Part shown: positions 13,149 to 17,386 of the stretch, piece after piece
Position numbering within the stretch: position 1 is the first letter of the stretch
How the letters are laid out: every line of letters starts with the position of its first letter
Made by a program: the position numbers and the translations under genes
Assembly: GCA_040754395.1 (NCBI GenBank)
Contig: JBFMCL010000017.1
Location: 1 to 64,000, forward strand
DNA: 64,000 nucleotides
DNA from: Nitrospirota bacterium
Lineage (GTDB): Bacteria > Nitrospirota > Thermodesulfovibrionia > Thermodesulfovibrionales > SM23-35
Reading direction: 5' to 3'
The notes under the pieces: model-generated
The model's database searches: none
Seen by the model: only the letters and a program-made list of their open reading frames with translations
Told to the model about the DNA's origin: nothing

Positions 13149-14270
13149 TCACTCAAGGATCACATACCCTTTTGTTTTTCCGATTCTCCTGCCTCTGATT
13201 CCCAGTGCTTCAAGGCAGGTGATCTTTCTCTCTTTGCGCATCTCGAGAATTTTCCTGACGGTTTCCGGCCCGAATCCGGGAACCCTGAGCAGGGCCTTTC
13301 TGTCAGAGGTATTTATCCTCACCGGATAGTATTCCGGATGGCTGTCGGCCCAGACCTGTTTCGGGTCCTTGTCCAAACGGAGGTTCCCGGTCATATCGAA
13401 CAGGATGTCCTCTTTGGCAAAACCGTATTTCCTGATGAGAAAGTCGGTCTGATAAAGGCGATGTTCCCGCACGAAGGGTACTTCAGGGTTTCCGGGCAGA
13501 TGCCGTTCTCCGGGAATCCCGTGATGCCCGAGACCTTTTTGGTAGGCTGAAAAGTAGATGCGCCTGAAATTCAGCCGCTTGTAGAGGCCGAACATGTAGT
13601 GTATGATCTCGGAGTCTGTTTCATCGGATGCGCCGACGATGAACTGGGTGGTGCATTTGACGTTCGAAAATCTCATGCCTTTGCCGGACAGCTTTCCCAT
13701 CAGTTTGAGCGGACGGAGAATGTCCCTGTCAAAGTCCTTGGTGTCCGTGAGCGCCCCGAAATGCTTTTTCCCCGGGGTTTCGATATTGAGCGATACTGCA
13801 GTCGCAAGCGAAAAGGAATCTTCGATCGCGGCATCAGATGCCCCCGGGATGATCTTCAGATGGATATATCCTCTGAAATTATGCCGGTATCTGAGGAGTT
13901 GCGCAACGGCATTGATCCTGTCCATCGTGTAATCAGCGTTCCTTATGACCGCGGAGCTCAGGAAAAGCCCGGAGACCTTTCTTTTCTGATAATATTCCAT
14001 GAATATGCGGGCAATCTCCTCCGGCTTCATGGTGCAGCGCCGGACATTGGTTTCCGCACGGAGAGGGCAGTATCTGCAGTCGTTTGTGCAGGCGTTCGAA
14101 AGAAGGGTTTTCAGCAGGAAGGTATACCCGCCCTGCGGAAGGGTAACAGGATAAAGCCAGTTGCCTGCAGGTCCCCTCCTCCGGTGCTCATCCCTGCGGG
14201 TACCGCATGCGCAGGCAAGGTCATACCGGGAATCCCCGGACAGTACCTGGAGTTTTTCGACCGTATCCAT
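13149..14270 (-). CDS. Putative DNA modification/repair radical SAM protein
   Basis: The 373-residue protein has a radical SAM 4Fe-4S motif, CTNDCRYC (Cys61, Cys65, Cys68), followed by PLRAETNVRR. A C-terminal helix-hairpin-helix-like segment, LLRVPGFGPETVRKILEMR, is typical of DNA-binding proteins. This architecture matches the radical SAM family usually encoded beside a SAM-linked uracil-DNA glycosylase-like protein and annotated as a putative DNA modification/repair protein. The usual glycosylase partner is not adjacent here. Its reaction is unknown. Family assignment is from recalled architecture, not a search. Confidence 0.8.
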   Translation of the reverse strand: MDTVEKLQVLSGDSRYDLACACGTRRDEHRRRGPAGNWLYPVTLPQGGYTFLLKTLLSNACTNDCRYCPLRAETNVRRCTMKPEEIARIFMEYYQKRKVSGLFLSSAVIRNADYTMDRINAVAQLLRYRHNFRGYIHLKIIPGASDAAIEDSFSLATAVSLNIETPGKKHFGALTDTKDFDRDILRPLKLMGKLSGKGMRFSNVKCTTQFIVGASDETDSEIIHYMFGLYKRLNFRRIYFSAYQKGLGHHGIPGERHLPGNPEVPFVREHRLYQTDFLIRKYGFAKEDILFDMTGNLRLDKDPKQVWADSHPEYYPVRINTSDRKALLRVPGFGPETVRKILEMRKERKITCLEALGIRGRRIGKTKGYVILE

Positions 14271-15328: not shown

Positions 15329-15357
15329 TTGACAGTACCCCCCGCGGTTGATAAGAT
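15329..15357 (+). promoter_or_regulatory. Sigma-70-type promoter for the selenopeptide operon
   Basis: TTGACA (15329-15334), a 17-base spacer, then TAAGAT (15352-15357). The predicted start of transcription, near 15364, lies at the 5' edge of the hairpin at 15366-15412 and about 110 bases upstream of the selenopeptide start codon. Confidence 0.55.
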
Positions 15358-15365
15358 TTTTCTAT

Positions 15366-15412
15366 AAAAGACACGACTGTCATAGATATTGCCAATATAG
15401 TCGTGTTTTTTT
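15366..15412 (+). terminator. Terminator-like hairpin at the 5' end of the sbtA leader
   Basis: ACACGACT (15371-15378) pairs with AGTCGTGT (15399-15406). Flanking A and T runs extend the stem through one G-T pair, and ATATTG/CAATAT can pair inside the loop. Seven T bases follow. It may terminate the upstream gene, or attenuate the transcript starting near 15364. A second small hairpin, CTCTGTC-TTT-GACAGAG, lies at 15429-15445. Confidence 0.6.
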
Positions 15413-15476
15413 GAAAAATGCGCATTGACTCTGTCTTTGACAGAGAGCACAAATCCTGTGGGAAAAGGAGGTGAAC

Positions 15477-15743
15477 ATGGACAGGAAGGATGTCAAAAAA
15501 ATCCTTGCAGGACTGAGTATCGCCGGGCTTCTGGCCGGAACAAGCTTGATTGGCGGTTGTGCCCAGAAACCTCAGGAACCCCCTGTTCCGGCAAAAGAGG
15601 CTCCTGCCACTGCTCAGGAAGCTCCCGCTCCGGCTCAGCAGGCACCTGCTCCAAGCAGCTGAGCAGGTACCAAAGAAGGTGCAGGTGGCACCAAAACAGA
15701 AAAAGCTCCTGGACAAAGCAGTTGAGCGGGAAGCAAAAAATAG
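15477..15743 (+). CDS. sbtA: SbtA-like selenocysteine-containing precursor peptide (two in-frame UGA codons)
   Basis: Read conventionally this is a 61-residue lipoprotein-like peptide stopping at TGA 15660. Read through, it continues in frame past a second TGA (15723) to TAG at 15741, giving 88 residues with Sec62 and Sec83. Both UGAs sit in the same context, Ser-Ser-UGA-Ala-Gly, and the peptide ends AGSKK. The N-terminus (MDRKDVKKILAGLSIAGLL...GGC28) is a charged, then hydrophobic leader with a lipobox-like Cys. The middle is Pro/Ala/Gln-rich with AQEAPAP-type repeats, and the segment between the UGAs is Gly/Lys/Thr-rich. The ATG is set by AAGGAGG five bases upstream. A SECIS-like hairpin follows each UGA. 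The radical SAM maturase gene begins 29 bases after the TAG. This fits the SbtA family of selenocysteine RiPP precursors as I recall it. Sec insertion is inferred. Confidence 0.8.
15661..15708 (+). promoter_or_regulatory. Candidate bacterial SECIS element 1
   Basis: After the first UGA (15660-15662), GGTGC (15678-15682) and GCACC (15688-15692) form a 5-bp stem closing the loop AGGTG. The loop begins 21 bases after the UGA, within the distance SelB-dependent SECIS elements require. GAGC (15661-15664) can pair with GCTC (15705-15708) to form a base near the UGA. The loop contains the G/GU expected for SelB recognition. Confidence 0.65.
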
Positions 15744-15758
15744 TGCAGTGTGCACTAT
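15740..15758 (+). promoter_or_regulatory. Candidate bacterial SECIS element 2
   Basis: ATAGTGC (15740-15746) and GCACTAT (15752-15758) form a perfect 7-bp stem with loop AGTGT, beginning 22 bases after the second UGA (15723-15725). The stem top GTGC/GCAC and loop start AG match SECIS 1. The TAG stop of the peptide lies inside the left arm. The maturase start codon is 14 bases downstream. Confidence 0.65.
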
Positions 15759-15772
15759 AATCGCACAGCAAG

Positions 15773-17386
15773 ATGAATACCACTTCTCACAGAAAAACTC
15801 ATGATATCTACAGGACATGCCGCGAGATTGCAGGTTCTGCAGTCTGGCAGCGCCTCATGAACGGACAGGAATTCACTCCGGAACCCGAACAGTTAATCAT
15901 CGGCCTAGAGAGGATGGGCGGGCAGGGTATCCCTGAATTTCTCCCTGATCTCGCCCGCCTCGAATGGGCTATCCATGAAGTTGAGATGACTTCTCCGGCT
16001 TCCCGGAAAGATACGGATGCAATCTCTCTCAATCCGTCACTCAGGATCCTGGAGGTATCATGGCAGAACCTGACGGAGTTATGTAATCCTGCCAAACCCG
16101 CATCATGCAGGAGACCGGAATCAGGAAGAGAGATGATTCTTCTCTGGAAGGTCGCACGCACCGGAGCAGTCCGTTTCCGGCCGGCAACCAGCGAAGACCT
16201 GCTGTCTCTCAAGATGATTTCAGAGGCGATTTCCGCTGAACAGGTTGCTGCGGAAGGAAAACTGCCGGTAGGCGCAGTTGATACCTTAATCGACGGGGCT
16301 GTTCGGGAAGGGATTCTGAACGCACCTCCTTCGGGGATACGACGTGATCCGCGCATATTCAGGGCAGAAGATGGCATCGGAGAAGAGTTCCTTGAATCCT
16401 TCAGTTTCACGCTCCAGTGGCATATTACCCAGGCCTGTGATCTGCAATGCCGGCACTGTTACGACCGCAGCGACCGGTCCCATATGCAATTGGACCAGGC
16501 TGTGAAGGTGCTGGACGACCTCCGCGTATTCTGCAGGTCAAGGCATGTCATCGGCGCTGTCTCTTTTACCGGCGGGAACCCGTTTCTGTATCCCGGTTTC
16601 ATTGAACTTTACCGCGCGGCCTCCGAACGCGGGTTCTCACTCGCGATTCTGGGCAATCCGGCTCGGCGTGAAATACTCGAGGAACTGCTCTCCATACAGA
16701 TGCCTACCCATATTCAGGTGAGCCTCGAGGGTCTGCCGGAACATAATGATTACATCCGGGGCAGGGGGCATTTTGACCGTGTAATGGAATTCCTCCGGCT
16801 GCTCCGTGAACTCGGCATATTTTCGATGGTAATGCTTACCCTCACACAAGACAATATGCATCAGATCATTCCGCTCGCTGAACTTCTCCGTGACCACACA
16901 GACAGGTTCCATTTCAACAGGCTTTCGATGGTCGGCGAGGGAGCAAACCTGGTTTTGCCCGGGAGGGATGCGTACAGGGCTTTTCTGGAAGAATATGAAC
17001 GCGCAGTGCAAGGCAATCCTGTGCTCGGCCTTAAGGACAATATGTTCAATATCCTGAGGCACGAACGCAACACTGAACTTTTCGGCGGCTGCGCAGGATA
17101 CGGGTGTGGGGCTGCCTTTAACTTTCTTGCGCTTCTTCCGGACGGGGAAGTGCATGCCTGCCGGAAACTCCCGTCATATCTCGGCAACATCTTCAATAAG
17201 GGAATTGCAGAAATATATGATTCAGCAGAGGCCGGCCGTTACCGGTCAGGGTGTGCAGCCTGCAGGGGATGCGCTGTCCGTGCGGTCTGCGGGGGATGCC
17301 TTGCGGTTGCCTACAGCCATGGCCTGAATATAATCGAAGAAAAAGACCCCTTCTGCTTTATGCCCCCTGCGGGAGCCAGACAGTGA
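15773..17386 (+). CDS. sbtM: SbtM-like radical SAM/SPASM maturase for the selenopeptide
   Basis: The 537-residue enzyme has an N-terminal all-helical/mixed region (1-210) without a recognised domain. A radical SAM core follows with CxxxCxxC as CDLQCRHC (Cys222, Cys226, Cys229) and SFTGGNPFLYP. A Cys-rich SPASM-type C-terminus (Cys440, 445, 463, 494, 497, 500, 506, 509, 528) would bind auxiliary Fe-S clusters. This architecture is that of peptide-modifying maturases. Adjacency to the two-UGA peptide identifies its probable substrate and fits the recalled SbtM family; the installed modification is unknown. There is no clear Shine-Dalgarno before ATG 15773, and SECIS 2 lies just upstream, so translation may be coupled to that of the peptide. 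The 3' end overlaps the convergent gene by 29 bases. Confidence 0.82.
   Translation: MNTTSHRKTHDIYRTCREIAGSAVWQRLMNGQEFTPEPEQLIIGLERMGGQGIPEFLPDLARLEWAIHEVEMTSPASRKDTDAISLNPSLRILEVSWQNLTELCNPAKPASCRRPESGREMILLWKVARTGAVRFRPATSEDLLSLKMISEAISAEQVAAEGKLPVGAVDTLIDGAVREGILNAPPSGIRRDPRIFRAEDGIGEEFLESFSFTLQWHITQACDLQCRHCYDRSDRSHMQLDQAVKVLDDLRVFCRSRHVIGAVSFTGGNPFLYPGFIELYRAASERGFSLAILGNPARREILEELLSIQMPTHIQVSLEGLPEHNDYIRGRGHFDRVMEFLRLLRELGIFSMVMLTLTQDNMHQIIPLAELLRDHTDRFHFNRLSMVGEGANLVLPGRDAYRAFLEEYERAVQGNPVLGLKDNMFNILRHERNTELFGGCAGYGCGAAFNFLALLPDGEVHACRKLPSYLGNIFNKGIAEIYDSAEAGRYRSGCAACRGCAVRAVCGGCLAVAYSHGLNIIEEKDPFCFMPPAGARQ

Follow-up and report, generated by a model that had tools for sequence, protein, structure and literature searches.

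Does the short reading frame that opens at position 15477 of this DNA (a Nitrospirota stretch of 64,000 nucleotides, hereafter the window) end at its first UGA codon, or are this UGA and a second one downstream read as selenocysteine (Sec), and what might the product be for? From ATG 15477, one frame of 88 aa runs through TGA 15660-15662 and TGA 15723-15725 to TAG 15741-15743, with 61 aa preceding the first TGA, so that the standard code yields the 61-residue product foreseen by an earlier sequence-only reading, which proposed a hidden Sec peptide at this site. The leader of the peptide matches the NCBIfam model TIGR04081 for SbtA (44.8 bits, cut-off 30.5), and sbtM, whose product matches TIGR04082 (722.9 bits, cut-off 350), starts 29 nt 3' of sbtA. 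The adjacent SbtM, the signal-peptide-like leader and the link to bufferins were not part of the sequence-only reading. The features of the cassette are listed below.

15329..15357, + strand: TTGACA-17-TAAGAT, promoter-like by consensus match only, upstream of sbtA
15466..15471, + strand: AGGAGG ribosome-binding site (Shine-Dalgarno), 5 nt before ATG 15477 (sequence)
15477..15743, + strand: sbtA, 88-aa precursor with two UGA codons predicted as Sec (translation with TGA=U; TIGR04081)
15477..15560, + strand: SbtA leader, ending LIGG/C28, predicted as a type II (lipoprotein) signal peptide (TIGR04081 residues 1-24; lipobox, looser form only)
15660..15662, + strand: UGA 1, predicted Sec, context PSS-U-AG (sequence, translation)
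15678..15692, + strand: SECIS-like hairpin 1, GGTGC-AGGTG-GCACC (loop 20 nt after UGA; encodes GAGGT)
15723..15725, + strand: UGA 2, predicted Sec, context QSS-U-AG (sequence, translation)
15740..15758, + strand: SECIS-like hairpin 2, ATAGTGC-AGTGT-GCACTAT (loop 21-22 nt after UGA)
15741..15743, + strand: sbtA stop codon TAG (same frame as ATG 15477 and both TGAs)
15773..17386, + strand: sbtM, radical SAM/SPASM maturase, 537 aa (TIGR04082; PF04055, PF13186)
15773..16333, + strand: SbtM residues 1-187, predicted DUF2063-like and RRE module
16424..16888, + strand: SbtM radical SAM domain, C222-x3-C226-x2-C229 (PF04055, residues 218-372)
17105..17272, + strand: SbtM SPASM domain (PF13186, residues 445-500)

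Scanning for SbtM across named genome records yielded 65 loci, mostly from Nitrospirae/Nitrospirota, Desulfo- and Syntropho- groups, and Deltaproteobacteria, with a single one in Sedimentisphaerales; a leader was found at 59 of them. Strains represented among these records are Desulfobacter latus AcRS2, Desulfospira joergensenii DSM 10085, and Desulfofustis glycolicus DSM 9705. Two relatives carry the JGI name "radical SAM modification target selenobiotic family peptide". When flanks of up to 4 kb were clustered by BLAST, no neighbouring gene recurred in more than 4 of the 65 loci, apart from sbtM itself and, in 11 loci, an ORF that overlaps sbtA on the opposite strand. Since the flanking genes do not recur beside sbtAM elsewhere, we take the cassette to consist of sbtA and sbtM. 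The five genes scanned around sbtA in the window were SbtM, SDR-like, radical SAM, PPOX, and photolyase; the stretch 13149-14270 encodes a TIGR03916-type radical SAM protein (289 bits, under the family cut-off of 343.5). Between the promoter-like site and sbtA, a terminator-like 15-bp hairpin running into T's (window 15366-15411, region z -2.91) may be either the end of the upstream gene or an attenuator. An Rfam search of the window gave no match.

UGA codons and the hairpins behind them

The 84 different SbtA peptides we compared combine the scan loci with loci from whole-genome searches; the leader scan covered 85 loci and found none in six (L094, L095, L110, L113, L114, L125). The number of UGA codons per peptide ranged from none (1 peptide) through one (5), two (44), three (25), and four (7) to five and six (1 each), i.e. 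three or more in 34 peptides. Trimming of run-on frames, at 14 loci in all, reduced the UGA sites from 227 to 207: the second UGA of a U-x-U was taken as the stop, L101 and L123 were cut by hand, and L093 and L167 keep doubtful tails in the 207-site set. Nine frames (L083, L087, L090, L098, L100, L105, L111, L117, L119) end in S-G-UGA-x-UGA, where presumably the first UGA is Sec and the UGA two codons on is the stop. The core of the window's SbtA carries two SSUAG motifs in a small Gly/Ser-rich segment, and relatives carry the same motif class. Comparison of homologous positions, which the sequence-only reading had proposed as a check, revealed UGA/Cys alternation: L117 reads SACSG where L105 has SA-UGA-SG, i.e. 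Cys replaces UGA in similar surroundings, and L136, with three Cys motifs, lacks UGA altogether. Two loci depart from the usual arrangement, namely an SbtA leader at G009:C109:5593-5655 (L145) in a genome without SbtM over the cut-off, and an SbtM-like remnant at G013:C12:6759-7091 (L047) with one TGA and two TAG inside.

In the window, both TGAs indeed sit inside Ser-Ser-TGA-Ala-Gly, and both hairpins are present at 15678-15692 and 15740-15758. The distances of 21 and 22 nt originally given for the loop starts hold when counted as the 21st and 22nd base, which leaves 20 and 21 bases between UGA and loop; if hairpin 2 is drawn with a tighter loop of 3 bases, its distance becomes 22 bases. Hairpin 2 covers the sbtA stop codon and part of the sbtA-sbtM gap. 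Across the family, a hairpin qualified if its stem had 5 bp or more and its loop, 3-7 nt long, began 16-22 nt after the UGA; we compared the counts with 100 rounds of dinucleotide shuffles. Such a hairpin follows 172 of the 207 in-frame UGA sites (shuffles: mean 17.4, maximum 27), whereas at a control distance of 26-32 nt the count (17/207) equals that of shuffles (17.2), and only 4 of 34 core Cys codons have a qualifying hairpin at 16-22 nt. These counts are of non-independent events, the SbtA peptides being mutually related. Where a stop codon starts no more than 18 nt after the UGA, hairpins occur at 68 of 74 sites vs. 7.3 in shuffles (54/60 with a TAA or TAG stop, and 14/14 where the stop is assumed to be a second UGA); at such sites the stop codon coincides with or precedes the loop, and protein constraint can therefore hardly have made the hairpin. 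At least one hairpin is found in 80 of the 83 Sec peptides and one at every site in 55, while 35 of the 207 sites have no qualifying stem. The stem top GTGC/GCAC shared by the two window hairpins is the commonest of 40 different 4-bp tops, with 50 of the 172 hairpins. The earlier argument that this arrangement exceeds chance thus stands at the level of the family, but is weak for hairpin 1 by itself: taken alone, its 41-nt piece folds otherwise (z -1.21, not significant), and the expected hairpin appears in the best fold of longer pieces only. Hairpin 2 taken alone gives z -2.44.

A GAGGT-like motif stands 4-10 residues after Sec at 91 of 126 internal Sec sites, vs. 1 of 20 core Cys sites, and the window's GAGGT is hairpin 1 in translation. 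Since the motif goes with UGA and in the window is encoded by hairpin 1, part of the SbtA product sequence is probably set by RNA. The leader family, the adjacent SbtM, and hairpins at the family distance uphold the sequence-only proposal of an SbtA-type RiPP precursor with Sec at each UGA, a reading further backed by the UGA/Cys alternation and by the tRNA-Sec and selD described below. We have little doubt that both UGAs encode Sec.

Selenocysteine machinery in the genome

The sequence-only reading expected selA, selB, selC, and selD in the genome, and this was borne out by half. A tRNA-Sec with anticodon UCA is encoded at G000:C1:231988 in the window's genome (G000), and selD, with its own UGA in SCSG-U-A, at G000:C11:63923. 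SelA had no match in this assembly (scored 99.96% complete), and SelB none over the cut-off. Among the 61 genomes searched, the window's included, SelA exceeded the cut-off in 56 and SelB in 58; SelA was not found in G001, G002, and G015 and was present only as fragments, one with a TAA, in G012, and neither G012 nor G015 had SelB over the cut-off. The G012 fragments (G012:C105:4711-5083, L071) have a tRNA-Sec beside them, and Sec decoding is perhaps being lost in this family member. Five genomes (G003, G007, G011, G013, G018) have at least two SelB genes over the cut-off, the second of which may serve a selC*-type tRNA. A tRNA-Sec-like gene (58.5 bits) at G000:C16:80860-80959 (L009:1501-1600), where a contig ends and 5S/23S rRNA is adjacent, is probably a selC*-type tRNA-Cys, because its anticodon loop CTGCAAA reads GCA; such tRNAs have been described for Nitrospirae (excerpt of PMC7609411).

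The surroundings of selA in relatives bear on the missing genes. A block that comprises selA, purF, one more gene, and selB, with ispF and ispD beyond them (gene names checked on L064), is whole in 4 of 11 stretches around selA (L062, L064, L065, L069), partial or interrupted in 3 (L063, L066, L068), and not seen in 4 (L067, L070, L071, L072), i.e. this neighbourhood is common but not universal. Both purF and ispD are genes expected in such bacteria. In the window's genome, the sole purF match has 25% identity over half its length, in a 609-aa frame, and nothing was found for ispD, these queries having been run without a positive-control genome; what is presumed to be EF-Tu is present just as short pieces at contig ends. 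Because purF and ispD, which lie beside selA and selB in several relatives, were also not found, we infer that the selA/selB block fell into an assembly gap.

Two alternatives would leave the UGAs unread. If the first UGA were a real stop, the product would be a 61-residue lipoprotein and the remainder untranslated, as the standard-code frame would have it and as might be suspected from the absence of SelA and SelB from the assembly and the non-significance of hairpin 1 alone. However, the frame runs on to an identical second SSUAG that likewise has a hairpin behind it, 172 of the 207 UGAs share the hairpin position, and in L032 the reading PAPSSU is followed by TGKK and a stop, all of which make a real stop extremely improbable. 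Alternatively, the organism could have lost selA and selB, the locus being a relic. The failure to find either gene in a genome of such completeness speaks for this, as do the relatives that show no SelA (G001, G002, G015), retain only fragments of it (G012), or have no SelB over the cut-off (G012, G015). Yet purF and ispD are missing along with selA/selB (in searches that were, again, without positive control), the presumed EF-Tu is broken up at contig ends, and the tRNA-Sec, the UGA-containing selD, and an intact sbtM are still there. We consider such a loss of Sec decoding very unlikely, and retain Sec at both UGAs as the preferred reading.

Leader, maturase and a proposed exported product

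Residues 1-28 of the SbtA leader begin with charge and continue with a hydrophobic segment (residues 9-26, mean hydropathy 1.84 across 68 peptides), followed by a Cys after a small residue or by an A-x-A-like site. Of these 68 peptides, 18 have a strict lipobox (shuffles: mean 2.3, maximum 8) and 32 a strict or looser one (shuffles: mean 7.4, maximum 16), leaving 36 with neither form; the window's LIGGC meets the looser form only. A wider rule assigns a lipobox-like Cys to 46 of the 84 peptides, and 35 of the 38 others have an A-x-A-like site, a loose rule satisfied by 72 of the 84, including 37 that are lipobox-like too. Two members of the window's family, L148 (G007:C52) and L149 (G017:C8), fuse the SbtA leader and one Sec to a CxxCH cytochrome c (L148:1501-1899), the single UGA standing one residue past an AQA/A site (PAQA/A). 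TIGR04081 scores 39.8 and 39.7 bits on these two (cut-off 30.5), and PF21342, tested for L148, 29.4 bits (cut-off 27). The leader-cytochrome fusion is covered by ten database proteins (64-74% identity), of which nine align along the entire length; all ten have Trp in the Sec place, and their longest contigs are all under 1.9 kb. We read this Trp as gene calling with UGA as Trp, TGG being possible, and three further database proteins end at the UGA position. The haem of c-type cytochromes is attached outside the cytoplasm, where these proteins are assembled. Because the same leader is fused to a c-type cytochrome, we interpret it as an export signal, and judging from these sequence features the SbtA peptide is probably exported.

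The maturase carries radical SAM cluster cysteines (C222, C226, C229) that are invariant in 26 SbtM (alignment A1, 26 of 31 sequences, leaving out L086 for a stop codon, L094, L112, L136, and L137). The predicted fold of SbtM residues 1-187 has as its best three PDB matches 3dee (NGO1945) and 8hi7/8hci (TglHI), where chain A of the latter two is TglI or TglH, undistinguished in the structure match; 3dee and the TglI of 8hi7 are named as MNIO partner proteins in an excerpt of PMC12452194. Profile comparison by hhalign of SbtM 1-187 with DUF2063 (alignment A3, 16 of 23 DUF2063 loci) gave 97.5% and E 8.5e-12 for this one pair, with 0.1% for the one control, SelA. None of the 26 SbtM passed the Pfam DUF2063 cut-off and 2 of 26 matched at all (best E 0.051), the window's genome had no DUF2063 match at E 0.001, and a PDB sequence search of SbtM returned radical-SAM matches only (9). 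From the fold and profile models, the SbtM N-terminus is probably homologous to the bufferin partner BufC. A phylum-wide mutual exclusion of SbtA and DUF2063 (in 20 and 21 of 295 genomes, with 0 shared) was given no weight, because chance alone predicts only about 1.4 shared genomes and the two occur in different clades.

These elements can be arranged into a pathway. The ribosome would read both UGAs as Sec by means of the hairpins 20-22 nt behind them; the DUF2063/RRE module, like BufC, would hold the leader during modification; and the radical SAM part of SbtM would turn each Sec into a selenooxazole ring. After modification, the leader would direct the peptide out of the cytoplasm through general export, with cleavage and lipidation at Cys28, and the exported rings may bind metals such as copper. 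That SbtA is the substrate of SbtM is almost certain. The SbtM of a relative removes four hydrogens from substrates with either Cys or Sec, the Cys product being a thiooxazole by NMR (excerpts of PMC11002830). A metal-binding role, proposed by analogy because no metal gene recurs beside sbtAM, is a suggestion for and against which we see about equal grounds. The explanation as a whole, an exported two-Sec SbtA modified by SbtM and maybe metal-binding, is the one we favour, with moderate confidence.

The main competitor takes the leader for an ordinary cytoplasmic one, to be cut off by a protease, and makes the Sec RiPP an antimicrobial (under the older names "selenobiotic" or "selenobacteriocin") or a redox peptide rather than an exported metal binder. 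The JGI name of the two relatives points that way, as does the entry "Selenobacteriocin" in a 2026 table (excerpt of PMC13188914), and metal genes recur near sbtAM in no more than 4 of 65 loci (flanks up to 4 kb). However, transporter, protease, and immunity genes also recur in no more than 4 of the 65 loci, the lipoboxes are well above shuffles, and the leader is found fused to a c-type cytochrome. An antimicrobial or redox peptide with a cytoplasmic leader therefore appears less likely, and export with possible metal binding remains the reading we carry forward.

Relation to known selenium and copper peptides

SbtA/SbtM is an established thio(seleno)oxazole RiPP system (TIGR04081/TIGR04082; Lewis et al. 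2021, as cited in the parts consulted of PMC13188914 and PMC12668002), and two-Sec SbtA are tabulated in the former. Because both were published before, this locus adds a member to a known kind, and the "hidden" of the sequence-only reading is partly right. We did not meet the export or DUF2063 reading of SbtA/SbtM in the literature searched, partly as excerpts, a scope outside which the SbtM paper of 2021 and the radical-SAM survey of 2011 lie; the open-access literature searched contained no paper with both "DUF2063" and "selenocysteine", and an exported selenium ring is not reported in the parts of the literature examined. DUF2063 partners accompany signal-peptide precursors and copper-binding thiooxazoles, and bufferins serve to sequester periplasmic copper (excerpts of PMC12452194 and PMC12668002 for both). 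That the SbtM-modified peptide shares the bufferin/captophorin absorbance near 302-305 nm has already been remarked (excerpts of PMC12668002 and PMC12538549).

SbtA ring chemistry is known in vitro, and we met no stated function in the literature searched. If SbtM shares the recognition module of copper peptides, SbtA function becomes testable through export, metal binding, and the need for residues 1-187. We give roughly even chances to the view that SbtA/SbtM represents the captophorin (bufferin) class in anaerobes, as a branch that uses selenium and has some members built into c-type cytochromes. If true, one recognition module would serve two unrelated catalysts, iron-based and radical SAM, being fused to the enzyme in the latter; the exported chelators would carry selenium, not sulfur, in their rings; and selenium would act as an exported metal ligand.

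The window's locus shares with known SbtA/SbtM the leader family, the adjacent maturase, and UGA in S-[SG]-U-[GSA] motifs. Like genes of bacterial SECIS-dependent selenoproteins, it places a short hairpin at a set distance behind the UGA; SbtA differs from these in having several Sec per small peptide, most with their own hairpin. With bufferins and captophorins, as portrayed in excerpts of the papers cited above, SbtA/SbtM has in common a small gene set and may share a signal-peptide precursor (sometimes a lipoprotein in those systems, and here predicted from a lipobox-like site of the looser form); the thiooxazole from Cys and the DUF2063 and RRE recognition module of those systems are likened to SbtA/SbtM, where the SbtM module is predicted. 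Buf1 has also been reported fused to a cytochrome c (excerpts of PMC12452194/PMC12668002), as the SbtA leader is in L148 and L149. No MNIO enzyme (PF05114) occurs among the five genes scanned around sbtA, and the window's SbtA has no Pfam match, therefore none to Buf1. The two kinds of system differ in the catalyst, which is a radical SAM/SPASM enzyme in SbtM and the iron enzyme MNIO in bufferins, in the modified residue, mostly Sec in SbtA and Cys in bufferins, and in the placing of the recognition module, fused to the enzyme in SbtM and a separate DUF2063 partner in bufferins.
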